From: Prasinococcaceae sp. CCMP 1430
Lineage: Eukaryota; Prasinodermophyta; Palmophyllophyceae; Prasinococcales; Prasinococcaceae
NCBI GenBank assembly: GCA_013416795.1
Contig: RQSC01000908.1
Span: 1 to 64,000 of the forward strand
Direction of reading: 5' to 3'
Length of the DNA: 64,000 nt
The position numbers were made by a program, and so were the translations under genes. Below are positions 6,001 through 31,692 of the stretch, one piece after another; the stretch's first letter is position 1; each line of letters begins with the position of its first letter. The notes under the pieces were generated by a model. It was not told where the DNA came from. It searched no databases and saw only the letters and a program-made list of their open reading frames with translations.

Positions 6001-9000
6001 CCGCGTGCGTGCGTGCGCAGCAGCACAACCGCCTCTGCTGCGCAGGGAATGCGACGCGTCTCGCGGGCGAGTCGGAATCGACGAATGACGGAAACGAGGA
6101 CATCCCCGCGCACGCCCAGGCTGAGCTCATCTCGCTCCAGGCTGATGCCATGGCGCTGCTCCCCGCCTTCGTGCGATCGGCATGGGCAGACCATGGCGGC
6201 GCAGGCAGCCTTTCGAGTCCGGGTGGCCGTGGCAGAGAGGGCGATAGAGACCAACTGATGAAGGCGATCCGCGACGTGCTTACTCTTGACCTACCGTTGG
6301 AGCGCTCAGCGGAACACTGGCGTGAGCGCGAGTGCTCGCCGCAATACATGCGCATGGGCCGCCTCGTTGGCGGGCTGCTAGCGAGCGCGCGCGCAGCCTT
6401 GGAGGTTGGCGCTGACGCCGCTGTCCTCAGAGTGCTTCTGAGATCGCCGCTCCTGCGCGACCCCAAGCATGTGCTCGCGCCCGCAGTGGACGAGGCGATG
6501 GAGGAGTGGGCGCAGGCCGTCGCCGCGACTGCCGCCGGCGTTGGCGGGCTCGCGGGAGCCTCACAAGGGCTCCCTGGCAGCCCGGGCGAGAGTGTCCGCG
6601 GGCCCGTCGCGGATGCGCTGGGGCTCTCCAAACTGCCACGTGCCGTGGCGAGCATCCTGGAGATGTGCCGCTCTCTCTTTCTCGATGACGATGCGGCCCA
6701 CGAGGGCGATCTGCGCTGCGTCAGCGACAGGCTACTCCCTCGCATCATCTCCAAGTGCGATCCTGCGGCGCGCGCAGTGATCCTTCACGCGTTCCTCGAT
6801 CGTTTGCTCGCTGCCATCGATGCCGCTGCAAGGGTCGGCCCGCAAGGACGTACGGACGAGGCTGAGCGTGCGCTGCTCACGGCGGGCGCCTGCGCGTGGG
6901 GCATACTTGGCGAGCTTCTTTTCGGCCTCACAACTGATGCGGTCAAGGAGCACGCGCCCTCCTTCAGCACAAAGGTGGTCGTGCAGAAAGCGGAGAGGGC
7001 GATGAAGCACACGCCGACGCATGACTCGAACGAGGGCGCCGTCGCGGAGTGCTCTGCGAGAGCCTTTGCCGCGCTTGCGCGCGCATTCGTGTGCCTGAAC
7101 ATCGCTAGCACAAGCGTTGATGGATTGGTGACAGAGCGGCTTATCGACAGGCTCAGGCCTTCGGGGGGCGACTTCCAGGCGTTCGCCACTGCTGCGTCTC
7201 AACCGAGCGTTGTTCTCTCGTTGCCTGTCGAGATGGCTGAATCCAACTCCTTGCAGCGCCGAAGGGCGCATCTGCGCGCGTCGTGGGGTGCTACGGCTGT
7301 GGCTGCAGCGGACACGGCCGCAGACGCCCCGCCGCATGCCTGGATGCGCTCGTCAGTCGTGTCACAGGCGCTCGCAGTGTCGCAGCTCAACACGCTCGCG
7401 GCGCTACCGCGCAACGAGGGAGGGCGCGCCGCTGGAGGCGGGCGGCCCAAGGGCAGCACGACAGCGACTATTTCGGCGAGCGTCGGGGCAGCCAGCCCGA
7501 GTGCGCTCACGCTTGAGCTCACGCAGGGCGACGGCGGTATGAATGCAGGTGCGACCGTCTCCGGCAGGGGCATTCCCGCAGCTGTGGCGGCTGCAGGTGT
7601 GCTGGACGAGCGCGATGACGACGACGAGCTCGACGGCCACCCCGTTGCGCGCGCGCTACGTTTGATCGTCGAGCGTATGGCGTCTCGCGACAGCCCCGAG
7701 GCGGGAGGTGGCGAGTCGCCCAGGCCTCGGTGGATTGCGTCGATGACCGAGGTCATGGATGCACCCGCCACGCCCCTGCACACTCGCCTGCTCATGGCGA
7801 AGGCCTTTCTTTGCGCGCCTGGAGTGGTGACGAGGTACAGCCGGTGGGTCTTCGGCCCATGCGCGCGCGCAGTGTTGTCGACGACGTCCGCGGCCGCGGG
7901 CGCGGAGGGCGAGAGCGCCAGTGGTCTGCACCTGAATTATCTTGTGCGCGACTGCCTTGTTGCGGCCGTCGCATGGCTGGAAGCTATTGGAACGGCTAAG
8001 CTGCTGCGCTCCGAGCCCGGCTCGAGCGAGGAAGCCCGCAAACTCGTGATCTTTGCCTGCCGCTCCGCATGGTCCTCCAAATGCAGCACCTATCGCACGC
8101 TGCGTGACACTATCGTGCTCCTGCGGCCTCTCGTGCGTGCGTGGGCTGTGGAGCTCGGTCTGGGGCCCGACCTCGCGCTGGGGCACTTTGGTGCAGCCGC
8201 GGTGGCAGACGAGCGCGCGGCAGCAGAAATCAACCCAAACGGTGCCTCCGGCCACAGCGAGCGTGAGAGTGCTCTGCACCACACGCTTGCTGGCCTCCAT
8301 GTGCTGGGCATGCTTGCCCAGAGCGGGGCGCCGTGTGCTGGGCAAGAGGCTGATTGGGAGGGCGTGTGGCCGCGCCTGCTGGATTTCGTTGGCTCGCGGC
8401 GCAAACGTGTTCGGCAACTCGCCGCTGAGACGCTCGGCGTATGTCTGGCTACGCTGCACTGCCGCGTCCCGCGGAGTGGCGCGTACGCGCGCTTGCTCGA
8501 GCAGACGCGGCAGCGATACGCGCACTTGCTGCTTGACGGCGGGTCGGCCAGCAGGCGTGCGAGTGGGCGTGCCAGCACAGCCGACGCTTTCAGCAGTGGA
8601 TCTGCTGCCCCGACCGCTCTGCCCGAGGGTGAGACGGTACTGGCTATCGATGCGACCGCCGCGCATCACTGTATGGTGATCGACAAGACGCTTGAGCAGG
8701 CGCTGGCCGACCGCGCGCGCAGTGTGCATGGCGAGGCGCGGCTCGCTGCCCTGCGAGCTCTTCGCGCGCGCGCGTCTTTTGGGGTCAAAGGCGGCTGCGC
8801 GACGACCGGACGAGAGCTGTTGCTGGACTCGCTCATGCCGACCCTTCGTCTAGTCTTGGACAAGCACGACCCTCCGGCGCAGCTTCTTGCGGTTCAGCTT
8901 CTCAGCCATCTGCTGCCGTACCTTTTTGACGCCGGCACGAGCGATGCGCAGCGCCAGCGCACGGAGCGCGCGCGCGCCGAGTTGCTCGCGCTCTTGCGCC

Positions 9001-12000
9001 TGCGGTTTGCGTCACACTCGGACGAGGCCTGCCGGAGCGAGTACCACGCCATGCTCATGGCCGCGGCCGCAGGGGAGGGCATCGCGCCCCTCCAAGGCGA
9101 GGTGCGCGTGCATCTGCTCGGTGCCCTGACGGACCCCTCGCATAGGCTGCGCACCGCGGCCGCCAACTGGCTGCACGAGCACCTCCCGCCCGAAGCGCCA
9201 CAACGCCTCGCCTGGCTGCTCGAGGCGGCTGCATGTGCTGAGGTGGCAGCGTCCGCGCCGTGTGTCGCCGCAACGCTCATGGTGCAGCTGGGTCGCGACT
9301 CGCCCACGTGGGACGACACGTCGGCCTATGCTCGCAAGCAACTTGCGAACGCGACGTTCGGCGAGGGCAGGGTATTTCAAGGAGGAACCGACGTTGGAGG
9401 GGCCGCAGAGTCTTTGCCTCTGACGCCCATGTTTTCGTCCCTCCCGAGGTCGATGCTGCCGGAGTCAGCGCACCCAAGCGAGGCAGATGTGGCAGGTATG
9501 TTCAGCGCGGGCGCGAGCAGTGCCTGCATGCACATGGACGCGCATTGGACGAACGTTGCCGGTGTTAACCCGCGGCGCGCCCGCGCTGTGCGCATCCTGT
9601 GTTGCCTCTCGTTGGGCCGCCTGCCGGCACGACGCTCACTCGATGCGACATTGGCGTCGGCGTCGCAGGCTCACAACGGGCGCGACCCGGCTGGGTGCTT
9701 GCCACACAGGCTCGTGGCGGCGCGGGAGGCTTCACGCAGCTGACGTCAGCCTCGCTGGTGCCTATGTCGATGACGCTGAGCCAGATGCCCTCAGCCGAGT
9801 ACGCGGGAGGGCGAAACTCCCTCCTCGCGGAGGTTTCGGGCGCGAGCGGTGTCAGCGCATCGACTTTGGGGTCGCTTGCGGGTGCGACAAAGCGCTCGCG
9901 CCTGGCCATGCGGCGCCCGTTGGCGATGTCGTCCTTCGTGCCGATGCTGGAAGGTGCGCGAGCGTCGTCTCTGCGAAAGCAGAGGCTGAACGCCGAGCGC
10001 CGTGAACAGGACGCGCGGGCCAACGCGGTGCCAATGTTCAGGGAGTACAGGCCCGGTGAGCTGGTCGACATTCAGATCTCCCCCCGTGATCTGTTCGCTC
10101 CGCTCGCGCGCGTTGCTGCGGCGGACGCGGAGGTCGCCATTGTTTTGCTGAAGCCTATACTGGCAGCCACGCGCGATGACGAGGGGGCGCGGGCAGAGTG
10201 GGCGCGCTGCGAGGTAGCGTTTGCAGCAATGTTGGAGTCCTCTGCGGGCTCACCCGCGCCTGTTGCTCTAGTGCATGCCGCCGCGATCGATTGCTGTGAA
10301 GCGCGCCAACCGCTGCGCATTGGGCACGATGCGCTCGCCGCTGCGAGCACTCCTGCGGGCCTGGCCGCCGGTGCCGCACAAATCATCGAGGAGCTGCTCA
10401 TCACGTCTCCAGATACAGCGAAGTCGAACAAAAGGCACCGGAGTGGAGGCGTGCGGAATGCGGAGCGAGGTACGCTCGTAGCTGGTCTGGCGGAGCGCCT
10501 TTCCTTGCTGGCGCTTGCTCATGTTTTGCGACAGCCCCTTGCTGACATTTCATAGGCGCGGATGCCACCGCGAGCGTCACATCCCTGGCCCCCTCGCCCG
10601 AGGCGGCACGCCCGCTGTGGATGTGCCTGAGCCGTTTGTACATGGACCTGTGCGAGGATGAGAGCGCCGCCGGCTGCCTCGTCTCGGGTGGAATAGCCTC
10701 GATGACTGCGACGCTGAGGGCGCTTTGTGCGCGTGCTGCGGGCGATCCCATGGCGGTGCGCAAAGCCGTCGAGGGTTCGCTCAAGACTCAACGCACGTCA
10801 CCAGACAAGTATGATAAGGCCGAGGCCAACGTGTGGTACGACATCGACCTCGAGGCTATGCAGGCGCTCGGCGATTGGGACATGCTACTGGCGAATGTGC
10901 AGGTCGAGATTAGTGACATGATGCAGGAAGATGAGGCGGGACCTGCCGGCGACCAGCTGGCACAGAGGCACGAGGGGGCAGACCGCCACGCGGACCCAGA
11001 GGCAGCCGTTCGTGCGCAGGGGGAGGTGCGCGCTCTCCTGCACCCCGAGCGTGGGCGATTGCTGTCTATGTACGTGATTGCTGCTTCGCACAAAGGCGGC
11101 GCGGAGGCGCGCGCTCTTGTGGACCGTTGGGAGGAGCTCCAAGGAGACGCGCTCAGTCGAGAGGGCAACGAGGCCATCGGAGAGGTGCGTGGGAGAATCG
11201 CTTCTTCGCTTGCGCGCGAGCCACCTTTGTGAGTGCGGTTCGTCTTTCCCCCAGTGCTGACATGGACTGCGCGCTTTCGTACACCCTTGCGCGCCCAGGT
11301 CGAGCGCTTGGAGCTCCACGCAAGCTCTCTGGCAGCAGCCGCTCTGCAGTGCGGGCGCGAGGCGATGGTCCCGCATCTGGCCGAGACAGCACGCGCACGC
11401 GCGTGCCGTCGGCTCGCATCGCTTCACCCTCTCGCCACGCGGGCGCGCCACGCGGCACTGGCTGACCTTGAGGCGCTCAATGCGGTCGAGGCTGCCGCTG
11501 CCGTGGCCGTGCGGGTCCGCGAAAGCCTAGGGGGTGGCGGCACGACCGCCACGCTCGCCGCGGCGGCGGCAATGGAGGCTAGACGGCAAGTGTCTGCGCC
11601 CTGGCCCGACGCCGTGTGGGACGGCCCGCACGAGTGGCACGCGGCAGTGCGTGCCCGCCACGCGGCACTCCAGACAGTTGAGAAGGCCGGTGCCATCACA
11701 GGATCATTGAGTTCCAGCAAGAGCGCCCCGGCCGGTGCCTCCGCAGTCGCTGCGCGGGACATGTCAATGCGTCAAATGATGCGCGATGCCACCCGCGCAG
11801 CGCTTGACGTCGGCGAGCTTCGCACGGCGCAGGCATTCCTCGGCTCGCTGTCGCAACTCGACACAAGGATCGCCAACGCTGCGGCGAACCCTGCCGTCGC
11901 GTCCTCGGCGGAGGACAGGTTGCTGCTGAGCGCGCAATGGCAGGCAATGGAAGCCCGCGGCGCGCCGATGTGGTTCCTCCAGGAGCGCAAGAAGGGGCTC

Positions 12001-14865
12001 GGGTGGCTGGTGCCGAGGCTCGAGCGTATGGCAGAGAAGTGTGAGGCTCTTGCGGCCTCCCGCGGTGCTTGGAACGACGGGTCGCCTTCACGTGGGCGCT
12101 GCGAGGCGCTGCGCGCAGAGGCGGATTGTCGCATGGCGCTTGCGTCGCTTTGCCCAAACCTGACTCAGAAGGCGACGGCTGCCCCCGACACCGAGGTTCG
12201 CCACCTCCAGAAGGCCGTGCGTGCGCTCGCCCAAGCTGCAGGGGCGGGCTCAGCGACTGCGACCGCAGCCGCAAGCGATGAAGATGACAGAGGAAGCGCT
12301 CTCTTTGACCTGATCCGGGCCACAGACCTGCTTCTGTCTGCAATGGATGAGGGGTCGCGCTACACAACTGAGCAAGGGGGCGCGCGGGCTGGACAGGACA
12401 GTGCCAGCACCGCCAGCACCGCCGCTGAGCTCCGCACGCAGCTCGTGCGTGCAGTCCTGCGTGGGACCCGCTACAACGCATCGGCAGCTTCGGAGTGGAT
12501 GCCTCGCGCGCTTGCCGTTCTTGCGCGCTCGTCGCGCGCGCGTGCGGCCTTCGCTGAGGGTGTGAGCGGCGTGCCGCCGGGTGCGCTCGCGCCGTGGGCC
12601 CCGCAGCTGCTAGCGAGCCTCACGAGTGGTACAGAGGACGACGCGCGCGCCGCGAGCGTCGCGCTGGACGTGGTGGCGCGTGCGCTTCCGCAGACTCTCT
12701 TCTGGCCGATGCGTGCCTCGCGCGCTGCGCTCGAAGGCAGCCCCGAGGCCGCGGCCCGCGCTGCGCCGCTCAGGGCGGCCATCGGCGAGGGCGCATGCGC
12801 CGCGCTGGAGCGGCTGGGCGCGGCGCTTGCCGATTGCGGCGCGCCACATATCCGGTGGAAAGGATACATCGAGGCGATTGAGAGCAAGCTGACGACCAAC
12901 ACGCCGCAGGCTCGAACGGAGGCCGCGACGCTCTGGCGCGAGGCCCGTGTGGAGCTCTTTGACTGGCCTTCGCTGACGTCGCGCGGCCACAGACGTGACT
13001 CGCGTGGGAAGGGTGGCACACGCGCGCTGTGGTGGGCGGACAAGCACGCCTCCGAGTTTGCAAGGCTCGACAAAGTATTTGGCAAAGACGGCGCTGGGCT
13101 GAGGTCGAGCGCGGTCGTCCAGAACGCGGCGAAGTTCACAGAGTACGTGAGCAAAGCCAGGCTCAGCGTTGCTCAGCTGAAGCAGACTGACGAGAGAGAT
13201 GGCCGCTCCCTGTACTTCGGCACGGGGCCGTGCAGGCTCGCGGCCTTGTCTCCCGACCTGGCGGCGTACACGCGCACTCAGCTCGAGCAGCGCGGGGGGG
13301 TAGCCCTTGCCGACGCTGGCGGCGCGAACCCAGCACGCAGGACGCGCGCGTTTGGCGACGCGTTTGTGCATGTGCCAGGTCTGCATGGCTCGCCGGGGGA
13401 TGCTGTCGCAGGCTCGGCGCCGGAGGGCGTGGAGATGCTTGGAGCGGCGCCCCACGCGCGTGTCTTCGGCTCGAAGCAGCTGCCTGTCATGGTGCGACTG
13501 CGCGGCTCGGACGAGCTCGAGCACGGGCGCATCGTCAAGTCTGGTGAGGACTTGCGGCTCGACGCGCGCGTGCAGCAGCTTTTGCGCGCGATGAATGTCG
13601 CACTGCGCCGCGCGCCGCGCACCGCACGGAGGAGGCTCGAGGTGCACTGCTACGATGTGACGCCGCTGGGTTCGCAGTGTGGGCTGGTTGAGGTAGTCAA
13701 TGCCATCACCGTTAAGGACGCAGTGGAACGCCGCGCCAAGGCTCCGGCAGCCCCCGCCGGTGGCAGCAAGCGCCGTCGTGAAAGCTCCGCGAGCCCCGCT
13801 GTGCTCACGAGCGCGGGTGTCGTGGATTGGCATGTTGATGCAATTACGACCGCCCACAGGAAGGGCAAGCGCTCTGGCGTCGGCCTCGCGCAATCCATCC
13901 CCGCCTCGACATTGGCTTACTCGTACCTGGCCGTGCACGACACGAAGGTGATGACCGACGAACAGGCCAGGACGGTGCTGCTCGATGCCTCGTCGATGCT
14001 GCCTGCGCACGCGCTGCGGCGCGCACTTGCGGCGCGCTGCCGAGGAGTGTCGGAGGCTTGGGTGGCACTGCGCGGGAGATACGCTTCGAGCCTGGCCGCG
14101 TCGTGCATTGGCGGGTGGATCCTCGGCCTGGGCGACAGGCACATCGAGAACATCATGCTCTCCAGCGACGGGAGCGTGGTGCCCATTGACTTTGGGTACT
14201 GCTTCGGAGCCGGGGCGATGCTGCTGCCGATTCCGGAGCTCGTCCCTTTCCGGCTGACTCCCCAGATGCTTTCGCCGCTGCTTCCGCAGCACGCCGCGCG
14301 TGCCGGCTCCACGCTACACTCGGACTGCGCGGCGGTGCTGCGCGCGCTTTGCGCCGCGCGCAGACAGCTCGCGGGTGTCGCGGAGGTCTTCGTGCGCGAG
14401 CCATTGCTCGATTGGGAGACAGAAGCGCGGAAGAGCGCCCGGACGATGGGCGATGTGGTCGCCGGTCTCGAACAGGCCGGTGCGGCTGCGGGCGACGTGG
14501 CCATGCTCCCGGCTGAGGGCGGCGCGGCTGGCGAGAGCAGAGCCCACAAATACGCGAGCCTGAAGGTGGACTTGTTCAACCGCAAGCTGCAGCTCGCCCA
14601 CCCCACGCACGTGCTCGCCGAGGAATTGCGCCGCAACGCTACCCTGCGCCAGCTGGAGGAGCGCTGCGGCAACGCCGACATCGTTGGCGCGCTGGAGCGC
14701 ACGCTGGACGGCGGGCCGGGCTCCGCCCGCGGCAGCGTGTGGCGCGCGCTGCGAAATGCGGAGCACTGCCGCAGCGAGGAGGAGTGCGCAAAGTGCCTTC
14801 TCGACCTCGCGAGCGATGGCGCGGTGCTCGGGCGCATGTGGTCGGGATGGTCGCCCTTTGTGTGA
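1..14865 (+). CDS. PRKDC: DNA-dependent protein kinase catalytic subunit (DNA-PKcs), 5' partial
   Basis: Giant PIK-related kinase that in other eukaryotes joins Ku at DNA double-strand breaks in the nucleus for end joining. Inferred exons: <1-3701, 3932-9495, 9669-10469, 10556-11184, 11299-14865; every join keeps frame, giving about 4750 aa against about 4130 in vertebrates. Conserved blocks run in family order: HEAT-rich N-terminal part (PLLSGFYKLLE near 2479; VHWFTSN near 3559), the first join restoring EEFMRW-SIK as in animal DNA-PKcs, then LTPMF near 9421, the VDIQISPRDL region near 10070, FAT (about 10556-13080), kinase (about 13470-14400) and FATC. The kinase keeps the lysine in IVKSGEDLRLD, catalytic GDRHIEN and metal-binding IDFGYCFG; the C-terminus SGWSPFV matches the WEGWEPWM type of DNA-PKcs rather than ATM, ATR or TOR. 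The frame is open to base 1 and the first in-frame ATG is at 64, so the true start may lie upstream. Confidence 0.93.
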
Positions 14866-16282: not shown

Positions 16283-18087
16283 ATGGCCCTCCCACGGCGC
16301 GGGGGGCGCGCCGCGCACCGCGGCGCGGCAGCGGCCGCGGCCGCGCTGCTCACAGCGGCGCGTGGGACGCGTGCACTCGACAACGGCTTAGCGCGCACGC
16401 CGCAGATGGGCTACAACACGTGGAACGACTATAGGTGCAAGGACATCAACGCTACCAACATCGCCGCCGTCGCCGACGCGATGGTCAGCAATGGCCTCAG
16501 GGACGCAGGTGCGCGCGGGAGGGATCGTGTCTCTCGGCGAGCGGCGCGTGCGCACGCGGCCGTGCCGGGTGCTGACAGCGCGCGCCAACGCGGGTGACGC
16601 GCGGCCGTGGCCGCAGGCTACCAGTACGTGAACGTCGATGACTGCTGGGCGGTGACGCGCGACCCGCACACGTACGAGCTCGTGCCGGATCCGCAGGCCT
16701 TCCCCGAGGGCATCAAGGCCGTCGCCGACTATGTGCACTCGAAGGGGCTGCGCTTTGGCATCTACACTGATCGCGGGTACAAGACCTGCGCAGGGAGGCC
16801 CGCGTCGTCCGGCTGGGAGGGCGTGGATGCCGCCACGTTCGCCTCGTGGGGCGTCGACTACCTGAAGGAGGTAGGCGCGCCACAGCGTGCGCGAGTGCAC
16901 GGCGGATGAGTTTGCGCACGCCATCTTAAACGTGAGGCTGACGCTCGCGGCGCGCGCCGCCCTCGGCGCAGGACTCGTGCAATGCGGACAGCGTCAACCA
17001 CGAGGTGGCCTTCGCCGACTACGGACGCATGCGCGACGCGCTCAACGCGACGGGTCGCCCCATACTGTTCTCGCTTTGCGGCTGGCACGACTGGTACTCA
17101 CCAGTGGGCGCCGCGCTCGGAAACAGCTGGCGCATCAGCGGCGACGTCAACAAATGGCCAAGTGTCTACGCTTCCGCCATGATCAACGCCGAGCTCAGCG
17201 CCAACGCCGGTCCTGGCGCCTGGAACGACCCTGTGCGTGTGCTGGCGCGCGCGCGCGCGCGGCGCATATGAGGTCTTGCGCGCGCCGGCGCGTCGGTCCG
17301 GGCGCGCGAGCGACAGAAGGGACACAGGCGAGAAGACAGAGAAAAACAGATTCGCTCGCATAGAGGGGCGCGCGGCCTGTGGCGACACGTGGCTCGTCGC
17401 CTCGAACGCTCCTGACCCTGCGCGCCGCGGCACGCGCGCGGGTGCGCGGGCGCTTGGTGCCCACGACAGGACATGCTCGTGGGATCTTCCCCTGCAGCCG
17501 CAATGTACAATACGCAGGAGCAGAGCCGGACGCAGTTTTCGCTCTGGGCGGCGATGGCAGCTCCTCTGCTCATCGGATCGAACGTCATCGGCCTCACGAA
17601 GTACGACCTCGAAACATACACTAATGCAGAGGTCATCGCCGTGAACCAGGACGCGCTCGGGGAGCAGGCGACCATCATCAAGGACAACTGCCCCGAGCGC
17701 ACCTTGGAGCAGCTGCAGGCGTGGCGTGACCCCGCCCGCTCTCTCGACGAGCTCGTAGCGGGCTCCGGTGGGGTTCCCGAGTGCACGCAGGTGTGGGCGA
17801 AGCCGCTGTCGGACGGATCAGCCGCGTTGGTGCTGATTAATTGGAGTGGGCCGTCGACAGTGGTCGAGTGCGACGACGCGTGCGTGCGCGCCGCGGGCGT
17901 CGACGCAGGCACGGTCAGCGCATACGATCTTTGGGAGCACCGGGACCTCGGTGTGATGGACACCGTGAAGGTGCCGGTCGGCGCCGACGGCGCGTCGGCG
18001 ATGGTCCGCGTATCGAGCGCCGCAGGCGTCGCGAGGTTTGCGCAGGGCGCTGTGCCGCGCGGCGCGCTGAGCGCCGCTGTAAGGTGA
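16283..18087 (+). CDS. Alpha-galactosidase, glycoside hydrolase family 27
   Basis: Retaining exo-hydrolase that removes terminal alpha-linked galactose (or N-acetylgalactosamine), usually lysosomal, vacuolar or extracellular. Inferred exons: 16283-16508, 16617-16870, 16972-17232, 17470-18087; 452 aa, all junctions GT-AG and in frame. After an Arg/Ala-rich hydrophobic N-terminus that could be a signal peptide comes [13 protein letters not shown], the classic GH27 beginning. The exon 2/3 join gives DYLKE-DSCN, whose Asp is the expected nucleophile. [11 protein letters not shown] holds the expected acid/base Asp. The exon 3/4 join rebuilds WNDP-DMLVG. A C-terminal beta-sandwich follows (about residues 330-452). 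The length is normal for plant and fungal members. The choice between alpha-galactosidase and alpha-N-acetylgalactosaminidase specificity is not settled by these motifs. Confidence 0.93.
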
Positions 18088-18355: not shown

Positions 18356-20656
18356 CTACCACGTCGCTAGCAAGAAGAAATACGTAGCTAGCGCTAAGAC
18401 CACTTGGCCAACGAACTCTCGGTCAAGTCTCACGACGCCAGCGATCACGACGCAGGGCGGGGATCGCAGAGCTGCTCCGCGCAAATCCGCAAGCTGCGCG
18501 TGCGCTTCCAGCGAAGCAAAACGAGCGCTCGCGAGGCTGGCAGCTTGGCGCGTCGTTGGCGGTGCGATCACCGCGCCGCGCGCGCTTCCGTCCGAGCGCA
18601 TCGTCGAGCCTGCCAAGGCAAGAGCAGGTACCTTTTGTCCCCTGGAGAATACTGAAGGCGAGTGCGAGGACGAGCGCGCGCTCCCGGACTCAGGGTGTTG
18701 TTGTGAATCACAATGATTGGTCGCCTCTCTTGCCCCTGACCCGGAACTTCCTGCGGAATATGGCGCCAAACGCGCTGGCGACAGCGGCGCCGGCGAGCGC
18801 GCCGTCGGTGACACCCCCCCGCCGCCGCCAGAGTTTTCGCTCCATCCGTTCGAGCGCGTGCTTCCGTGCTCAGGCGCACCGGGCCGGGTGATCGCAGTGT
18901 AACGCTGGATCACCATCGGCTGGTCTAGACACGATGCAAGCTCACCAGCGGCGTCGCTCACCTCCACGCCGGCCCTCAGCAGTGCGGAGAGAGCCACCAA
19001 ATCAATGACGCCCCAGCCGCTGACCACGAACAATTGCGACGGCGACATACCCACGAAAAGAACAGAGTAGAGCCCGAAGATGGCGAGAGCGACTGCGCCG
19101 AACACGAAGATGGTCAGGAAAGGGGAGGTGAGCTCCGATATCTGCTGGCACGCGGTCGTGGCGGTATGGAGCCACTCATGCGCTCGCGGCAGCGCGATGC
19201 TGCCTCCTTCGAGAGCCATGCGGAGCTCATGTTGCTGCGCGGAGAGGGCGCGGCAGGCGCCCCCGAACTTGGCCAGTGGCACCATCCACGCGTACGAGCG
19301 CGCAATGTGAAGCACAAACGGCACGCCCTCAGAGAGTATGTTGGACCAGCACCCGTCCTCGCGCGAGATGAAAGGCTCGAGGCTCCACGCCATGTGGTGC
19401 ACGAAGGCGGTCACGCGTGCGCCTCGGTCGAGCCAGCCGTACTCGTACGCAGCCGCGTGCAGGATGTACCCCCCCGCGCCCAACACGGCAAGGCAGAGGA
19501 GGTGCCGCCGGGCCAGCGCCAGCGTGCGCTGCCGGGCTTGCTCAGCCGCGCACAGTCGCGCGCCGGTGCGATTGAAGCCGTCGCCGATGATCTTGTGTGG
19601 TGCGCCCGCCCTGGCCGCCCTCAAGTTGCGATCGCGTGACGAGCTGGCGGTCCCGGCATCCTGCTGCAGCCCTGCTCGCTGGCGGCGCTCGCACCAACCC
19701 ATGGCGAGCTCTCCGATCTGGCGCATGTCGTGTCTCAGTGGCGCGAGGAGCATGAAGCACAACGCCGCGGTCGAGACAATGAACCAAAGAGTGCACATGG
19801 CGATGAACGTCAGATCTTGGCGCGAGAGGTCGAGATCCTCAAAGGGCCGATCGTGCCCGTCATTTGCGTCCTCGGATTGTCGACTACTGCCGCGCGGCAG
19901 CAACGGCGCTGGCGGCAGGAACATCGCCTTGCGCGCCGCGACACGTTCGATGCGCCGGGCGGTGGCAGCAGTGCACTCTTCTCGCAAGACGACAGCTTCG
20001 CGCTCGAGCTCCAGCTCTGCAACCGATTTCACGAGCCACAGTTTCCTGGTGGCCTCGATCTCGGCGGCGACCGCTTCCTCTGTCTCGAGTGCCCGCGCGC
20101 ACACGTGCCTCTCCCAGGCGGCCGTGGCCGCGCGCTTGAGCGCTGAAGTATCGTTCACGTATGCGGACAGCGCCGCGCGCACGCCTCCAAATTCCAGCAG
20201 CAGGTCGGCAGCGGACGGCAACTCCGACACGTGGCGATTCTCCGTAATTATGCTCAGCCGTGCGAAGTGTGGGGGCAGCTGTACGCCGAAGAAGTGCACG
20301 CTGCGCGCAGTGGCGACCGCGGCACCCCGGCTGGTCGGGGCGCACGCGTCGTTGACAGTGTCGTCCGTGTCGAGTAGAAAGTCATGCACAACGGGCGCGA
20401 GCCTCTCCGCGCCCGCGCCCAAGGGGGCGCTGGCACGACCCTCGCCGCCAGCCTGGTCCCAGGCGCTGGGGCACTCGTCAATCACAGCCTCGCGCAGAAT
20501 GCCATCCACGAGGAGGAGCACGCGCCCCAGGTCGAGCAGGGCGAGCAGCGCCAAGAACATGGCAGCGCATCGCCGGCGCGCCGACGCGACGGGCGTTGCG
20601 TCCAGAGCGCTCACCAGCCCCCACTCATCCCCCGCCTGCTGTGCGGGCGACGCCAT
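18356..20656 (-). CDS. Multi-pass membrane protein, candidate gustatory-receptor-like (GRL) 7TM channel family
   Basis: Intronless, 766 aa from the ATG at about 20656. Hydrophobic segments lie near residues 32-55, 282-306, 385-405, 442-465, 508-536, 540-563 and 740-766: seven in all, the last at the extreme C-terminus. The final segment reads VVRLDREFVGQVV then LALATYFFLLATW, the layout of insect gustatory/odorant receptor TM7 (LD-x-x-L...TYhhhhhQF), with the Gln-Phe replaced by Thr-Trp. A stretch before TM5 (HEWLHTATTACQQISELTSP) also resembles the receptor IL2/TM5 region. Long insertions lie between TM1 and TM2 (about 225 aa, helical) and before TM7 (about 175 aa, Ser/Gly-rich). Insect relatives are ligand-gated cation channels; function here is unknown. 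Homology is judged by eye from topology and the TM7 motif, so the family call is tentative, while the membrane protein itself is secure. Confidence 0.6.
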   Translation of the reverse strand: MASPAQQAGDEWGLVSALDATPVASARRRCAAMFLALLALLDLGRVLLLVDGILREAVIDECPSAWDQAGGEGRASAPLGAGAERLAPVVHDFLLDTDDTVNDACAPTSRGAAVATARSVHFFGVQLPPHFARLSIITENRHVSELPSAADLLLEFGGVRAALSAYVNDTSALKRAATAAWERHVCARALETEEAVAAEIEATRKLWLVKSVAELELEREAVVLREECTAATARRIERVAARKAMFLPPAPLLPRGSSRQSEDANDGHDRPFEDLDLSRQDLTFIAMCTLWFIVSTAALCFMLLAPLRHDMRQIGELAMGWCERRQRAGLQQDAGTASSSRDRNLRAARAGAPHKIIGDGFNRTGARLCAAEQARQRTLALARRHLLCLAVLGAGGYILHAAAYEYGWLDRGARVTAFVHHMAWSLEPFISREDGCWSNILSEGVPFVLHIARSYAWMVPLAKFGGACRALSAQQHELRMALEGGSIALPRAHEWLHTATTACQQISELTSPFLTIFVFGAVALAIFGLYSVLFVGMSPSQLFVVSGWGVIDLVALSALLRAGVEVSDAAGELASCLDQPMVIQRYTAITRPGAPEHGSTRSNGWSENSGGGGGVSPTARSPAPLSPARLAPYSAGSSGSGAREATNHCDSQQHPESGSARSSSHSPSVFSRGQKVPALALAGSTMRSDGSARGAVIAPPTTRQAASLASARFASLEAHAQLADLRGAALRSPPCVVIAGVVRLDREFVGQVVLALATYFFLLATW

Positions 20657-24091: not shown

Positions 24092-25961
24092 CTATTGGGC
24101 GAGCGCCTCGCGCACGCCCTTGGCCTTCTCCTTGAGAATGTCGAGCGCCTGCGACACGAGCTCGGCGGGCGTGAGCGCTCCGGTGCTCTCCACGGAGAAT
24201 ATGAAATGGTCGCGGCGCTGGCCCATGCGCACGTGCGACGCCCCGGGCTCCTCGCGCAGGCAGTTGCGGGACATCGTGCACTTGCGCGCGTCGAGCACCA
24301 CCGCACGGCGGTGGCCTTTGCCGCAGGGCTCCGTCCCGAAGAGGCCCGGATCGCCGTCCTTCACGAGCTTGTCCGCGTCCTGGCGTACGGCGCGGGCGCC
24401 GAGTCAGCACTCGCCGAAGAACGCACGCGGCCACGCGCTCGCCCAAAATCGCGCTCGCGCGCGCATGCCTCAGGGAGTGACATGGCATCCTTGCCAGCAC
24501 CGGCCATAGCGTCGGCGGGTTCATCGCTTTCGCGTCGCCGACGGCGGGAGAGGCTCATCTGAGGCCTTGTCGCTTCATCACAGGCAGCGCACCCGCACTC
24601 ATCACCAACCACACACGCGTGCACACACTCACGCCCCACCACCCTCACCGCATGTGCTCACCTCGTCTAGCACCTCCCCGACTATTTCCACTTCGGGTAG
24701 CAGCCGATAGAACGCCGTCGCCACCGGCGAGAACTTGGCGTGGTCCTTGCCCACGCCCTTGACTGCGAGCGCCTCGAGCTCGATCCCCTGCCCGGGGCGC
24801 AACTTGGCCAGCAGGATGCCATCGCTCACCGGGCCAGGCGGCCGTCCGTCAGACTCGGGGTTCTGCATGCGTCCAGCGCGGCCGTGCGCATGTGCGCGGA
24901 TTGGGGGGTGGGGCGTGCGCGCGTGTCAGCCACGCGCACGTCGCAAAGCATTTGAGGCGGCCCGTTCGGGCTTGTCGCGGACGCCGCCGACGCGGAGAGT
25001 CCGCGCACGCACCTGTATGGCACTAAATTGCGTGAAGCGCTTCAATGCAGCGACCGGCTCTCCGTTTTCGTCAAGTGGCCACATGGATCCCTCGTTCCGC
25101 CACTCGAAGTCCCCGCTGGTGACCTTCTTCGTCACGGTCGCGCCCGTCGCTTCGCCGCGAGCGGGGCGAGGGACAGACACGTCTAGCTTGAACATGATCG
25201 AGTTGTTCTCGTCGTACTTTCCCTGCGCGCACGAGACAGAGGGCGCCAGCGAGCGAGCGGAGGAGCCGAGGAAAGCGTGGCGTGTCAGCACCTGTGGTGC
25301 GGAGCCGAGCGCACAACCTCGCGCTCGCCCAAAATCGCGCTCGCGCGCGCATGCCTCAGGGAGTGACATGGCATCCTTGCCAGCACCGGCCATAGCGTCG
25401 GCGGGTTCATCGCTTTCGCGTCGCCGACGGCGGGAGAGGCTCATCTGAGGCCTTGTCGCTTCATCACAGGCAGCACGCGCGCTGGCATGCAGGCGCGGCA
25501 GCGCGCACCTTGGTTTCCACGAACTCGTAGTTGCGCGGGTCGGCGCGCAGCGGCACGAGGCCCAGCCTGTGGCTGAGGACTTCGTCGGGGATGACGCTGG
25601 TGTTGTCCTTGATGAACACGTACTCGATGGCCATGGTAGGCACCTCGGCGATGAGCACGCGGCGGAGCGCGTTCGCGAAGGACGCGTCCACGCCCACCAA
25701 GTCGAACTCCATCTCGTCTCCCTCGGCGCGCACCACGCGCACGTCCAAGTCGCGCTCGAATGCCTTCAGGTCGAGCGCATTGTCGACGCCTACTGACGCG
25801 AGCGAGCCGGCCGAGGTGAGCGGGTGGCAGCCCGTCTGGATGTCCGCGCCAACGCTCGTGGAGGTGCGCAGCCTCTCGAGGTGCGCGGGCAGCTCGTCCG
25901 CGGCCGCAGCGTCCTTGGCGGCCTTCGTGGCCGTCTTGTCGGCCTTCTTGGCACGCGCCAT
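24092..25961 (-). CDS. POLR1C: RNA polymerase I/III shared subunit RPAC1 (AC40)
   Basis: Alpha-like subunit shared by nuclear RNA polymerases I and III. Inferred exons: 25961-25509, 25222-25013, 24862-24662, 24379-24092; 383 aa, all phase 0 and GT-AG. Exon 1 carries [20 protein letters not shown] and the [12 protein letters not shown] segment, the alpha-motif of this family; exon 3 has [20 protein letters not shown] and [18 protein letters not shown]; exon 4 ends with [19 protein letters not shown]. These match POLR1C rather than POLR2C (RPB3). Introns 1 and 3 each contain the same 155-bp sequence. The gene is divergent from POLR1A, encoding its partner in Pol I, across a 505-bp spacer that holds an assembly gap. 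Confidence 0.94.
24434..24588. repeat. 155-bp perfect direct repeat, copy A (POLR1C intron 3)
   Basis: Base-for-base identical to 25320-25474 and in the same orientation. It lies wholly within intron 3 (24661-24380) of POLR1C, 73 bp from the donor and 54 bp from the acceptor. The flanking intron sequence is unrelated to that of copy B. Confidence 0.95.
25320..25474. repeat. 155-bp perfect direct repeat, copy B (POLR1C intron 1)
   Basis: Identical to 24434-24588. It lies wholly within intron 1 (25508-25223), 34 bp from the donor and 97 bp from the acceptor. Both copies lack obvious terminal inverted repeats or an ORF with recognisable similarity. Both hosting introns have a GTGCTGAC branch-like motif outside the repeat, on the acceptor side. 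Confidence 0.95.
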
Positions 25962-26466
25962 CGCCGCGCCGTGCGCGCTCTGTAACCCCCTTCCGCCCAC
26001 TACTGCCACCCTCTTCCCACCCCACCCGACCCCAGACCTACCGGCCCGGCCCGGCCGCGCTCGCGCGCCCGCCCGCCCGCGCGNNNNNNNNNNNNNNNNN
26101 NNNNNNNNNNNNNNNNNNNNNNNNNNNNNNNNNNNNNNNNNNNNNNNNNNNNNNNNNNNNNNNNNNNNNNNNNNNNNNNNNNNNNNNNNNNNNNNNNNNN
26201 NNNNNNNNNNNNNNNNNNNNNNNNNNNNNNNNNNNNNNNNNNNNNNNNNNNNNNNNNNNNNNNNNNNNNNNNNNNNNNNNNNNNNNNNNNNNNNNNNNNN
26301 NNNNNNNNNNNNNNNNNNNNNNNNNNNNNNNNNNNNNNNNNNNNNNNNNNNNNNNNNNNNNNNNNNNNNNNNNNNNNNNNNNNNNNNNNNNNNNNNNNGG
26401 GCGGCGCGCGAGCGGCGCGCGGGGCCGCCTCCGACCCCCCCCCCCACACAGCCGCGGCCGCGCGAG
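25962..26466. promoter_or_regulatory. Divergent POLR1C / POLR1A promoter region containing an assembly gap
   Basis: The ATGs of the two Pol I subunit genes face away from each other across 505 bp, of which 26084-26398 are N. The sequenced edges are C-rich on both sides (cccaccctcttcccacccc-like near 26010; ccgacccccccccccac near 26431). The gap probably interrupts extreme GC or repeat sequence in the shared promoter. Confidence 0.7.
26084..26398. other. Assembly gap (315 N)
   Basis: Run of 315 undetermined bases. It lies entirely upstream of both adjacent start codons, so neither coding sequence is affected. Confidence 0.99.
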
Positions 26467-29400
26467 ATGGCGTCCTCGGTGGACGCCACGCCGTGCGAGC
26501 TCTCGTCGGTGTCCTTCGGGATGTACTCGCCGGAGGAGGTGCGCGCCATCTCCGTGACGGAGGTGGACTCGCCCATCATGTTCGACAACCTCAACAACCC
26601 GCTGCCCGGCGGCCTCTACGACCCGGCGATGGGGCCCATCGACCAGATGGGCCGCTGCGTGACGTGCGGCAACCCCCAGCGCACCTGCCCGGGCCACTTC
26701 GGCCACATCGAGCTGCCCGTGCCCGTGTACAACCCGCTGCAGTTCGACGGCCTCACCAAGCTGATGCAGGCCACGTGCGAGCACTGCCACCACTTCCGCC
26801 TCCAGCCCGCGCAGACGGCGCGCTTCGTGAGGCGCTTCGAGGCGCTCGCGCGCGGCGACGTCGTCGGCTCCCTCGACACCGTGGAGGCGGCCGCCGCGGG
26901 CGACGTCGGCTCCGACGCCGCGGGTGACGGAGACGACGACGAGAGCATGAGCGAGGGCGACTGCGACGGTGGGAGCGACGAAGCGCAGGGCAAGAAGAGG
27001 TCCGCGCACGCCCCGCGCTCAAAGCTGGTCCACGACCAGTACCTCGCGCTCGTGGGCTCCTTCCTGCGGCTGTGTGCGAGCGGCCAGAAGTGCGGCTACT
27101 GCGGCCGCTTCAACGCCAAGGTGAAGCGCGAGGGCGCGAACAAGCTCTTCGTGAAGCCGGTCTCCGAGAAACAGGCGCGCGCGAACGCCATGCTGTCAGC
27201 GAAGGGCGACACCGCCGCCCCCGCTGAGCCCGCCGAGCCCGTGAGCAAACCTGCCGACGGCTCCGAGACCCCAGACTCGGACGCCGACGGCTCGGACTCG
27301 GACGTGGATGTGCTCGTCGAGGTCGGGGCGAACTCGGACAAGCAGGACGCCGAGGAGGCTGCAACCGCCGAGGCGAAGGCGGCCGAGGCGACGAAGGTGG
27401 TCGCCGACAGCGGCACGAAGTTCCTCACCGCCGACGTGGTGAGGGACCATGTGGCCAAGGTGTGGCGCTACGACAACCGCGCGGCGCGGCACGTGTGGGG
27501 CGGCGGCGGTGGCGGGGTCAGCGGGGCCACGGGAAGCGGCGCGCACGCGTACTTCGTGGAGGCGCTGCTCGTTGCGCCTAACCGCTTCCGCCCGCCGTCG
27601 CAGATGGGCGATCTCATGTTCGAGCACCCCATGAACACGGCCCTGAAGGCCTGCCTGGAGGCCTGCCTGCGCGTGCGCGACGTCGGGCGCGCGCTGGCCG
27701 GCCAAAATGAAGGCGGCGGAGAGGATGCGAACGACGACGAGGATGGCGCTGAGGGCGCCGAGCGGCGCCCGAAACCAACCAATCAGATGTGGATTGGGTG
27801 CTGGCAGCAGCTGCAGGTCGCAGTGAGCGCCGTGCTGGACAGCGACGGCGCGGAGAGCGCGGGCGTGCGGCAGGTGCTCGAGAAGAAGGAGGGCCTCTTC
27901 CGCAAAAACATGATGGGCAAGCGCGTCAACTTTGCCGCGCGCTCGGTCATTTCGCCCGATCCCCTGATTGCGCCCAACGAGATCGGCGTGCCCGTGTACG
28001 TCGCGGAGGGCCTCACGTACCCAGAGCGGGTCGGCGCGCATAACGCAGAGTACCTGCGCGCTGCTGTCATCAATGGTCCGCGCCACTACCCTGGTGCAAC
28101 GGTCGTTGAGGACGCCAAGGGCCACACGGTCGACCTCTCGCGCCTCAGTCGCGAGCGCCGCACGAACCTCGCCAAGACACTGCTCACGGTCACGCAGGAG
28201 CGGCGAGGTGGAAGTGTCTCGACGCCGTTCGCCAAGGTGGTGCATCGCCATCTGCGCGACGGCGACATGATGCTTGTGAATAGGCAGCCGACCCTGCATC
28301 GACCCTCGCTGATGGCGCACCGTGCACGCGTGCTGCGAGGGCAGCGCACCATTCGCATGCACTACTCCAACTGCTCGTCCTACAACGCCGACTTCGACGG
28401 CGACGAGATCAACCTGCACTTGCCGCAGGACGAGCTCGCGCGTGCCGAGGCGTCGGAGGTTGTCAATGCCGACGAGCAGTACATCGTTCCGACGTCTGGC
28501 GGGCCCATCCGCGGCCTCATCCAGGACCACGTCGTCATGTCGGTCGCCCTCACACGCCGTGACACCATCCTGGACGCCGAGCGCTTCCAGATGCTGCTGT
28601 ACTACGCTTGTGGCAGCGCGCCGCCTACAGACTATGGCGATGACAGGGGAAAGGTTCGCGAAACGGAGGAAGAGCAACTTCAGATACCAGAGCCTGCTTT
28701 CCTCAAGCCGCGGCGGCTCTGGACAGGAAAGCAGCTGTTGTCCTCGGTGCTGGCACACTGCGCACGGGGGCGCGCGCCCATGAATGTTGAGGCGGGAGCC
28801 AAGCTGAGCGGCGCTCTTTGGGGGGACGCGCACGAGGGGCGCGTCGTCGTGCGCAACGGACAATTGGTTACAGGCGTGTGCGACAAGGCCATATACGGAC
28901 GTGGCGGTATTGTGCACGCCTTCCAGGAGCTGTACGGCTGTGCGGCAGCTGGGAGGCTGCTGCATGCCTTCTCTAAGCTCTTCACGAACATGCTGATGTG
29001 GAAGGGCTTCAGTTGCGGCATGGAGGATCTTAGCCTCACGCCCGAGCACGAGGATGCGCGCTCGCGCGAGCTCTTGACCAGCGTGAGCGCCGGCGAGGGT
29101 GTCGCTCGCGACATGCTTGACAAGGCTGGCAAGGCGCACATGCTCCCTCGCGTGGATCGCACCGAGGCGGGCAAGCTCAACGCACCGCTGGCGCACGCGC
29201 TCGGGGCGCACGTGCGCTCAGTCGCGTCCGCCGAGGTCGCGCTTGACATGCACATGACCGGTGCGCTCGCGCCCGTGAGCAGCGCGGCCATCAAGGCCTG
29301 CCTGCCGCACGGTGCGTCGCGGCCCTTTCCCGACAATCAGATGGCCATGATGACGTCGTCTGGCGCGAAGGGGTCAATGGTGAACTCGTCGCAGATCTCT

Positions 29401-31692
29401 GTACTGCTAGGGCAGCAGGAGCTGGAGGGGAGGCGTCCGCCGCGCATGGCGAGTGGCAAGACGCTGCCGTGCTTCGCGCGCTTCGACCCTGGCGCACGAG
29501 CGGGCGGATTCGTCGGGGACCGCTTCCTGTCTGGCCTGCGCCCCCCCGAGTACGTCTTTCACGCAATGGCCGGGCGCGAGGGTCTCGTCGACACGACCGT
29601 CAAGACGTCGCGCTCCGGCTACCTGCAGAGGTGTCTCATCAAGTGCCTCGAGGGTCTGCGTGTCTCGTACGATTATTCCGTGCGCGATCAGGACGGCAGC
29701 CTGGTCCAGTTCCGCTACGGCGAGGACGGCGTGGATCCGACCGCTTGCGCGTACCTCTCTGCGAAGCACCTTAGCTTTGTGGCGCAGAACGCGGAGGCCT
29801 ACGCGGAGGCGATCGGCCCCGATGCCACGCCGCCGAGTGCCGCTGCGGATGCGGAGGCACGCAGCAAGGTGCGCGCGGAGCGCGCGGCGGCGCGCGACAG
29901 CGCGCGCGCACCGCTGCTGGGGGAGCGGTCTCCCGCCGAGGCGCTTGGCATTACCTCGGAGGCATTTTCGTCAGGCTTGGACGACTACGTCGCGAGCAAT
30001 CCGGACGGGCTGCTCGAGGCGGAGGCGATCACCAGCAAGAAGAAGAAGAAGAAGGGCGCCAAGACCGCGGAGAGGGCGACGAGGAAGGCGCTTTCGCGCG
30101 AGGCGATGCTGGCAATCGCCGAGGCCAAGTACATGCGAAGCCTCGCACCGCCAGGAGAGGCGGTCGGCGTCATCGCGTCGCAGTCCATAGGCGAGCCATC
30201 GACGCAGATGACGCTCAACACATTCCATTTCGCCGGCCGCGGCGAGGCGAATGTCACGATGGGCATCCCGCGCCTGCGCGAGATCTTCATGAGTGCGAGC
30301 GCGTCCATCGGCCTGCCGGTGATGACCATCCCGATGCGCTCGGACGTGTCCGAGGCGGAGGCGAAGCGGGTCGCAGCGCGCCTCAGCAGGCTCGCGCTCG
30401 CGAGCGTGTGCGATGGCGTGGACGTGAGCGAGTCTTTCGAGTCGGAGGGCTTCGGCGCCTCGGTCTCGCGCATGCGGCGTTGCTCGGTGACGCTGCGGCT
30501 GCGGCCGCGGCGGCGCTGGCCGCGCGAGGCAGCGCTCTCGTGGGAGCTGATCGAGCGCGCGGTTCGTGGCGACTTTGTGCGACAGCTGCTGATGCTGGTC
30601 AAGAAGGAGCTCAAGGCGGCCGACGGCAGCGCTCGCATCGTGGCCTCGGCACGCGCTGACGCCGACGCGATGGGGACTGCAGCTGCCAACGCGGGGGGCG
30701 ACGACGCGCGAAGAAAGGAACGCGCGGCAGCGGCGAAGCGCGCGCGCAAACGCGAGCGCGACGGCGACGACGGCGATCTCGACGACGTTGACGAGGACGA
30801 GCTCGATGCGACCGAGGCCCGCGCTCGTGGTCGCGGCCGCGAGACGGCTGCGTACGACGGCCGCGACGCTGAGGACGCCGCCGCTGAGCGCGAAGCGGAG
30901 GCTGCCGCGCGCTCCCGAGCGGGCGCAGGCGGCGGCAGCAGCGATACCGAAAGCGTCGAGGAGGATGGCAACGCCCCCGAGGGTGCCAAGCGGCGTGGCA
31001 CTGGCGAGGCGGAGCTTGAGCGCCAGGCCACCGTCACTCTCGATGGGAGCGATGGTCCCTCGCCGACAGCGACTGTCACCTTTACCATTCCAGCGGAGGC
31101 CTCGCGCATCCTGTTGCTGCCGCTCGCTCAGCAGGCAGCGGTTGGCGCGGCTGTGCGCGCCACGCCGGGCATCTCGCGCGCTTTCGCGGTGGTGGGAAAG
31201 GGCGCCGACGCAGGCAGCATCAAGCTGCAGACGGACGGCGTCAACTTCTCCGCAGCTTGGCATCTGGCAGCCGTGGGCGCCGAAGTGGACGCCGTGACCT
31301 CGAACGACATCGCGGCGATGCTCCGCGTGTACGGCGTGGAAGCCGCCCGCGCGACGCTCGTGAACGAGGTCAGCGGCGTGTTCGGTGCCTACGGCATTGG
31401 CGTCGATCCGCGCCACCTGGGGCTCGTCGCGGACTACATGACGTTTGAGGGCGACTACCGCGCGTGCTCCCGCTTGGGCATCCGCTCGTGTACCTCGCCA
31501 ATGACGAAGATGTCCTTCGAGACGGCCATGACCTTCGTGCGCGATGCCGCCCTGCGCGGCGAAGAGGACACGCTTAAGTCGCCCTCCTCGCGCATTATCG
31601 TGGGCCGCCCCGTGGGCACGGGCACGGGCATGTGCTCGCTGAGGTATGACGTGGAGGCCGCTTGCGCCATGGCCACCGCTGAGGCCCGTTGA
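26467..31692 (+). CDS. POLR1A: RNA polymerase I largest subunit (RPA190/A190)
   Basis: Catalytic subunit of nucleolar RNA polymerase I, which transcribes the large rRNA precursor. Single exon, 1741 aa, a normal family length. The N-terminus PGGLYDPAMGP then CVTCGNPQRTCPGHFGHIEL forms the clamp zinc site, followed by a second Cys pair (KCGYCGRFN). KRVNFAARSVISPDP precedes the active-site loop NADFDGDEINLHLPQ, which holds all three Mg-binding Asp. SQSIGEPSTQMTLNTFHFAG is the conserved block of the C-terminal half. Near residues 1400-1515 there is a long acidic/basic low-complexity insertion, typical of Pol I largest subunits. The C-terminus (MTKMSFETAMTF, then RIIVGRPVGTGTG) is the Pol I form and there is no CTD heptad repeat, ruling out RPB1. 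The upstream open frame through the N gap is not coding. Confidence 0.97.
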   Translation: MASSVDATPCELSSVSFGMYSPEEVRAISVTEVDSPIMFDNLNNPLPGGLYDPAMGPIDQMGRCVTCGNPQRTCPGHFGHIELPVPVYNPLQFDGLTKLMQATCEHCHHFRLQPAQTARFVRRFEALARGDVVGSLDTVEAAAAGDVGSDAAGDGDDDESMSEGDCDGGSDEAQGKKRSAHAPRSKLVHDQYLALVGSFLRLCASGQKCGYCGRFNAKVKREGANKLFVKPVSEKQARANAMLSAKGDTAAPAEPAEPVSKPADGSETPDSDADGSDSDVDVLVEVGANSDKQDAEEAATAEAKAAEATKVVADSGTKFLTADVVRDHVAKVWRYDNRAARHVWGGGGGGVSGATGSGAHAYFVEALLVAPNRFRPPSQMGDLMFEHPMNTALKACLEACLRVRDVGRALAGQNEGGGEDANDDEDGAEGAERRPKPTNQMWIGCWQQLQVAVSAVLDSDGAESAGVRQVLEKKEGLFRKNMMGKRVNFAARSVISPDPLIAPNEIGVPVYVAEGLTYPERVGAHNAEYLRAAVINGPRHYPGATVVEDAKGHTVDLSRLSRERRTNLAKTLLTVTQERRGGSVSTPFAKVVHRHLRDGDMMLVNRQPTLHRPSLMAHRARVLRGQRTIRMHYSNCSSYNADFDGDEINLHLPQDELARAEASEVVNADEQYIVPTSGGPIRGLIQDHVVMSVALTRRDTILDAERFQMLLYYACGSAPPTDYGDDRGKVRETEEEQLQIPEPAFLKPRRLWTGKQLLSSVLAHCARGRAPMNVEAGAKLSGALWGDAHEGRVVVRNGQLVTGVCDKAIYGRGGIVHAFQELYGCAAAGRLLHAFSKLFTNMLMWKGFSCGMEDLSLTPEHEDARSRELLTSVSAGEGVARDMLDKAGKAHMLPRVDRTEAGKLNAPLAHALGAHVRSVASAEVALDMHMTGALAPVSSAAIKACLPHGASRPFPDNQMAMMTSSGAKGSMVNSSQISVLLGQQELEGRRPPRMASGKTLPCFARFDPGARAGGFVGDRFLSGLRPPEYVFHAMAGREGLVDTTVKTSRSGYLQRCLIKCLEGLRVSYDYSVRDQDGSLVQFRYGEDGVDPTACAYLSAKHLSFVAQNAEAYAEAIGPDATPPSAAADAEARSKVRAERAAARDSARAPLLGERSPAEALGITSEAFSSGLDDYVASNPDGLLEAEAITSKKKKKKGAKTAERATRKALSREAMLAIAEAKYMRSLAPPGEAVGVIASQSIGEPSTQMTLNTFHFAGRGEANVTMGIPRLREIFMSASASIGLPVMTIPMRSDVSEAEAKRVAARLSRLALASVCDGVDVSESFESEGFGASVSRMRRCSVTLRLRPRRRWPREAALSWELIERAVRGDFVRQLLMLVKKELKAADGSARIVASARADADAMGTAAANAGGDDARRKERAAAAKRARKRERDGDDGDLDDVDEDELDATEARARGRGRETAAYDGRDAEDAAAEREAEAAARSRAGAGGGSSDTESVEEDGNAPEGAKRRGTGEAELERQATVTLDGSDGPSPTATVTFTIPAEASRILLLPLAQQAAVGAAVRATPGISRAFAVVGKGADAGSIKLQTDGVNFSAAWHLAAVGAEVDAVTSNDIAAMLRVYGVEAARATLVNEVSGVFGAYGIGVDPRHLGLVADYMTFEGDYRACSRLGIRSCTSPMTKMSFETAMTFVRDAALRGEEDTLKSPSSRIIVGRPVGTGTGMCSLRYDVEAACAMATAEAR

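Follow-up and report, generated by a model that had tools for sequence, protein, structure and literature searches.

Identification of the candidate gene

We analyzed 64,000 nucleotides of contig RQSC01000908.1 from the alga Prasinococcaceae sp. CCMP 1430 (the whole stretch is called the window below) and focused on one gene at positions 18,356 to 20,656, which the original prediction had put forward as a candidate member of a gustatory-receptor-like (GRL) chemoreceptor family. Based on its sequence features, we consider it moderately probable that the gene encodes a divergent member of the seven-transmembrane ion channel (7TMIC) superfamily. It would probably be a cation channel and would carry an unusual outside domain, placed between the first two transmembrane segments (TM1 and TM2). 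The open reading frame (ORF) is essentially as first described, and its strand, which had not been given, is minus (Table 1).

At the local GC content of 66%, the chance of a stop-free run is ~1e-6 for 577 codons and ~1e-8 for the full 766 (GC content across the window, in 2-kb steps, is 0.60–0.74). We trained a codon model on the parts of eight other ORFs in the window that matched Pfam (2,827 codons). In the ORF frame it gave 0.42 bits per codon for residues 1–60, 0.10 for residues 61–280 and 0.26 for residues 281–577, and in each of these blocks the frame beat the other five. In finer 60-residue blocks there was one exception (residues 181–240, 0.04 versus 0.24 on the other strand). For comparison, the training genes scored 0.21–0.81 and a held-out alpha-galactosidase exon 0.26. 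Because scores are positive over residues 1–577, TM1 to TM6 look coding.

The remainder of the frame behaved differently, with scores of −0.34 bits per codon for residues 578–690 and −0.08 for residues 691–766, and codon use supports the TM7 segment only weakly. Residues 578–690 are probably an intron or a disordered inside loop, and seven splice models predict a protein of 608–701 residues. The same scores, together with a 7% chance that a run of 113 codons lacks a stop, would also suit a gene in which TM1 to TM6 are real and the TM7 segment is foreign, residues 578–766 being an intron or 3' non-coding sequence that is open by chance. We consider this quite improbable, as none of the other five frames outscores that of the ORF over residues 691–766 and the receptor-like end of the protein described below sits in exactly that block.

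Hydrophobic segments and topology

The 766-residue protein contains six clear hydrophobic peaks (19-residue Kyte-Doolittle means of 1.69–2.46) at residues 32–50, 285–303, 386–404, 516–534, 542–560 and 748–766. The last of these runs to the stop codon, within LDREFVGQVVLALATYFFLLATW, in agreement with the prediction of a segment at the extreme C terminus. The predicted total of seven held less well: TM4 (residues 444–462) is weak, with a hydropathy of 1.08 and a rough insertion score of 8.94, and the count therefore leans on the family layout. Other stretches left out of the count reach hydropathies of 1.03 (residues 727–745), 0.83 (120–138) and 0.81 (206–224).

If the N terminus is inside, the outside loops (EL1 to EL3) are 229, 36 and 5 residues long and the inside loops (IL1 to IL3) 79, 49 and 184, the last being shorter if spliced. 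With our segment borders, the insertion after TM1, previously put at about 225 residues, is thus 229. The one before TM7, put at about 175, is 184, but part of it may not be protein, given that residues 578–690 lack a codon signature. EL1 carries cysteines at positions 62, 105, 186 and 228, a sequon at Asn168, and 26 Lys/Arg and 37 Asp/Glu residues; IL2 has only 3 Lys/Arg. Flanking counts of lysine and arginine (up to 15 residues from each segment) add up to 11 for the inside and 6 for the outside, and three arginines precede TM1; the sequence leans to an intracellular N terminus. Counting TM4 then places the C terminus outside, as in insect receptors. Hydropathy and charge together lean to this arrangement of the two termini, which nonetheless rests on a weak TM4.

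Similarity to insect gustatory receptors

To compare the protein with known families, we scanned it against Pfam profiles with HMMER, whose filters drop most weak matches. The lead match was 7tm_7, the profile of insect gustatory receptors (length 370, curated cut-off 26.6 bits), at a sub-threshold 12.1–25.3 bits depending on the version of the protein; DUF5617 and CelA score as well on the uncut sequence. Whole and uncut, the protein gave 12.1 bits (E = 0.12) over TM5 and TM6, and 7tm_7 was listed for all three uncut versions that span TM5–TM7 (12.1, 14.1 and 14.1 bits). We also used 15 versions in which the loop before TM7 was shortened, comprising four joined versions from the first scan, five cut variants and six splice-site models (six of seven cut variants and six of seven splice models were scanned). 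The profile was listed for 13 of them at 12.7 to 25.3 bits, and in 9 of the 15 the alignment continued through TM7 to profile position 360–361. The highest score (25.3 bits, E = 1.2e-5) came from c4, one of the four joined versions and the best of the 15. The original prediction had asked for a profile check with HHpred; made here with HMMER, it returned the expected segments in the expected order once the loop was shortened, although below the cut-off throughout.

Several controls bear on this match. After shuffling of either the TM4–TM6 part or the TM7 part (one shuffle each), 7tm_7 was absent from the listing, as it was for the reversed whole sequence and for all 10 shuffles that exchanged residues only within the hydrophobic, small and charged classes (pattern-keeping shuffles). 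The profiles 7tm_6, Trehalose_recp, DUF3537 (PF12056) and PHTF were likewise unlisted when the protein was scanned against Pfam, where weak matches may be filtered out.

We next compared the C-terminal end with solved receptors. An ungapped alignment of the last 34 residues with the termini of BmGr9, Gr43a and Orco (31 residues for Orco) gave 9 of 34, 8 of 34 and 7 of 31 identities, respectively. Out of 100,000 pattern-keeping shuffles, 361 reached the summed score, and 771, 2,422 and 2,438 reached the single scores for BmGr9, Gr43a and Orco. With a small profile built from four gustatory receptors and Orco, 6 of 5,000 such shuffles scored at least as high as the candidate. The quoted TM7 text, LDREFVGQVV...TYFFLL, is present as given. 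In the TM7 motif (T/S)Yhhhhh(Q/K/E)(F/L/M), where h is hydrophobic, the candidate keeps the Thr and Tyr, follows them with five hydrophobic residues and ends in Thr-Trp, which makes two of the four fixed positions and bears out the reported absence of the terminal Gln-Phe. Aligned to BmGr9, this 'loss' reads as a substitution of Thr-Trp for Gln-Phe, so that one polar and one aromatic residue still occupy the two positions preceding the stop.

Weighing the family assignment

A number of results weigh against membership. No version reached the 26.6-bit cut-off, and the 7tm_7 score hangs on the cut chosen, from no listing to 25.3 bits; the best splice-site model gave 21.1 bits and two of the six lacked the profile. 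TM7 alone gave no Pfam match, and TM4–TM6 alone (residues 420–590) gave HisKA_4TM without 7tm_7. In the whole uncut protein, DUF5617 (E = 0.052) outranked 7tm_7, and on the same TM5–TM6 stretch the NCBIfam profile CelA scored 15.1 bits (E = 0.0044) versus 12.1. One of the 10 pattern-keeping shuffles scored 22 bits in an unrelated family, so that E-values of such hydrophobic sequence are optimistic. The small gustatory receptor and Orco profile scored the candidate at 9.9 bits, and a phmmer search against solved structures listed none. On both scales, TM4 is no stronger than the uncounted residues 149–167 (hydropathy 1.11, insertion score 9.16). Benton et al. (2020) describe proteins of ~350–500 residues with inside loops longer than outside ones, whereas the candidate has 766 residues (608–701 if spliced) and an EL1 of 229. 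No relatives were confirmed in viral contigs (one stretch matching the search pattern) or in prokaryote genomes (84 stretches), with scans that detect close relatives only. Finally, the sole 7tm_7 listing across the alga's own 24.5-Mb genome was another protein, at 15.8 bits, and the candidate gene itself was unlisted in that search.

This other protein (L002, on G000:C79) has ephrin-receptor-like cysteine-rich repeats followed by several hydrophobic segments. It scored 15.8–16.8 bits over other profile positions and is probably unrelated to the candidate; we took it as a chance match and used it as a yardstick.

The other sub-threshold matches were put aside, namely HisKA_4TM (E = 0.006–0.023), CelA, DUF5617 (E = 0.008–0.05), Epiglycanin_C from the Pfam scans and TIGR02466 from the NCBIfam scan. 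As 7tm_7 is likewise sub-threshold, this was a judgement. In a scan of fragments, DUF5617 fell on the TM1–TM2 loop with 16.8 bits (E = 0.0079; cut-off 26.3).

These weaknesses leave room for an unrelated polytopic membrane protein, perhaps lineage-specific, whose last helix resembles that of gustatory receptors by convergence or chance. The 7tm_7 scores below cut-off in every version, the about equally weak HisKA_4TM and CelA matches to TM5–TM6, the presumably accidental score of a cysteine-rich polytopic protein, and the atypical big outside domain and weak TM4 all fit this explanation. Against it, two separate parts of the candidate, each of them necessary for the match, point to 7tm_7 in the right order, and the TM7 end keeps the register of solved receptors as far as the stop codon. 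We regard it as rather unlikely.

For membership count the collinear TM5–TM7 similarity to 7tm_7, the better-than-chance match of the TM7 end, charges that lean to an inside N terminus, and ciliary genes in the host. The collinear match and the TM7 end lend partial support to the proposed family, while the sub-threshold scores and the long EL1 leave the assignment qualified. Benton et al. (2020) retained sequences with 'most or all' of five criteria (PMC7746228, in the parts used here), so the rule that inside loops exceed outside ones is typical and not absolute.

The host alga and neighboring genes

Searching the alga's genome with the full protein returned only the gene itself. A shortened TM5–TM7 version hit both halves of the gene and, weakly, one other place (48% over query residues 64–111, E = 0.09; the locus is partly masked nearby), and neither query found a second copy. 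Genome searches with DUF3537, 7tm_6 and PHTF gave no matches, and their controls matched nowhere either; absence is not shown by these searches.

The genome has 19 matches to light-harvesting genes. For one of the encoded proteins, the top matches were LHCI chains of entry 9vfj, followed by chlorophyll a/b-binding proteins (among the best 60 of 282 matches). We also found one radial spoke gene, in two adjacent stretches, and 10 matches to AAA_lid_11, which we take to be a dynein heavy chain domain. These genes indicate an alga equipped for cilia and thereby make a sensory role for the candidate channel plausible.

The chlorophyll a/b-type antenna proteins would also suit a protein of the same superfamily that groups with plant DUF3537 or with PHTF and not with the gustatory receptor side. 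In the published tree, the animal proteins are separate from a clade that unites those of plants and algae (PMC7746228, in the parts used here). We consider this placement improbable: neither profile was listed in our Pfam scans, and the candidate keeps the Thr-Tyr of a TM7 motif that the same source describes as largely unrecognizable in plants and green algae.

The window holds several other genes (Table 1). A DNA-PKcs-like gene lies in pieces over successive open frames, with DNA-PKcs_N, CC1-2, CC3 (below cut-off), CC5 and a PI3/PI4-kinase domain. The largest RNA polymerase subunit is encoded by a single 2,053-residue frame with five RNA_pol_Rpb1 domains. Further along are an EF-hand calcium-binding protein and Kelch repeats fused to a calcineurin-like phosphoesterase, a build that is presumably that of the plant and algal BSU1/PPKL phosphatases. 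Upstream of an alpha-galactosidase exon (Melibiase_2, Melibiase_C) is an intron-like stretch, judged by eye, that reads GTGCGTG...CACGACAG; its donor resembles the candidate donor GTGCGC in the 7TMIC/GRL candidate gene.

Table 1 Features of the candidate gene and its surroundings in the window (segment borders are ours)
Feature	Residues	Window position	Strand	Remark
Candidate 7TMIC/GRL ORF	1–766	18356..20656	−	ATG at 20656, stop at 18358–18356, 766 aa, no internal stop
TM1	31–52	20501..20566	−	Arg-Arg-Arg just N-terminal
TM1–TM2 loop	53–281	19814..20500	−	229 residues; outside if the N terminus is inside
TM2	282–304	19745..19813	−	From hydropathy
TM3	384–405	19442..19507	−	From hydropathy
TM4 (putative)	442–463	19268..19333	−	Weak hydropathy; placed partly from family layout
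7tm_7 match in uncut protein	502–577	18926..19153	−	TM5 + TM6; profile 228–306 of 370
Stretch without codon signature	578–690	18587..18925	−	Several frame-keeping GT..AG pairs in or near it
Putative TM7a + TM7b	691–766	18359..18586	−	7tm_7 alignment in loop-shortened versions
TY of the TM7 motif	Thr758–Tyr759	18380..18385	−	Followed by FFLLATW, then stop
DNA-PKcs-like gene		22–14865	+	In pieces
Intron-like stretch		17233–17469	+	
Alpha-galactosidase exon		17473–18087		
Largest RNA polymerase subunit		25531–31692	+	
EF-hand calcium-binding protein		44040–45314	+	
Kelch–phosphoesterase fusion		47535–50150	−	

Possible mechanism and significance

What follows on ligand and function we infer chiefly from BmGr9. 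In that receptor, T436 and T429 build hydroxyl rings, I440 and F444 form the hydrophobic gate and Q443 moves during opening (PMC11100771, in the parts used here). The ungapped alignment pairs these with Thr758, Gln751, Leu762, Trp766 and Thr765, respectively. If the candidate worked alike, four subunits would meet around TM7, with Thr758 and Gln751 at the places of the hydroxyl rings, Leu762 and Trp766 at the two hydrophobic gate layers and Thr765 at that of the gating glutamine; this functional reading is drawn from the alignment. Either a ligand bound among TM1–TM6 or a signal received by the large outside domain might displace TM5 so that a cation pore opens, and we would guess that a depolarizing or calcium signal then passes to the cilia.

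More specifically, and only tentatively, a ciliated alga with green-type antennae may here encode a 7TMIC channel to which a large extracellular sensor domain, containing cysteines, has been added between TM1 and TM2. The protein would then be an insect-type receptor channel with its own outside ligand-binding head.

If the family assignment is true, the gene is an oddly built addition to a known superfamily, and the large outside domain, if real, is a new way to build a 7TMIC channel. The channels by which insects smell and taste have a proposed origin in a family that the last common ancestor of eukaryotes already possessed (PMC7746228, in the parts used here). Outside animals and plants, few members have been published, and none has a reported function in the literature consulted on the family. 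If the assignment holds, this alga, with its ciliary genes and a single detected copy in which the Thr-Tyr of the pore helix is kept, would offer a simple system for studying what such channels sensed before animals.

Comparison with known family members

The expectation that an algal protein would add to this family was broadly correct, but members from green algae had already been published, from Chloropicon primus and Micromonas pusilla (PMC7746228, in the parts used here, as for the other statements from this source). Among the papers listed in a literature search, no other one treated algal GRLs in its title or abstract opening, which is not proof of absence. The TM7 motif of accepted members is largely unrecognizable in green algae, retains one of four positions in fungi and up to three in Thecamonas (PMC7746228). 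The C. primus and M. pusilla proteins resemble the candidate as single, distant 7TMICs of unicellular green algae with enlarged loops. By description, which is the only basis of this comparison, they differ in that the long loops are inside (~200 residues for IL2 of C. primus).

Like the insect gustatory receptors represented by 7tm_7, BmGr9 and DmGr43a, the candidate shows collinear similarity over TM5–TM7 and a C-terminal LDR...TYhhh whose stop is in nearly equal register; if the weak TM4 is counted, it would also have seven transmembrane segments and, as the charges lean, an inside N terminus and an outside C terminus. It departs from them in scoring below threshold, in ending with Thr-Trp where they have Gln-Phe, and in having a 229-residue outside loop and longer inside loops. 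Plant DUF3537 proteins, proposed to belong to the same superfamily, share a long IL3, but their profile was unlisted for the candidate, which keeps the Thr-Tyr of the motif.

A large TM1–TM2 loop is described for none of the published members in the available parts of PMC7746228 and PMC9998090. A parallel in overall build exists with the trypanosome GRLs and PHTF proteins of Benton and Himmel (2023), which combine a 7TMIC-like fold with large extra parts on the inside (PMC9998090, in the parts used here). Their additions are N-terminal or in IL1, whereas the largest addition in the candidate lies between TM1 and TM2 and, with the N terminus inside, would face outward.
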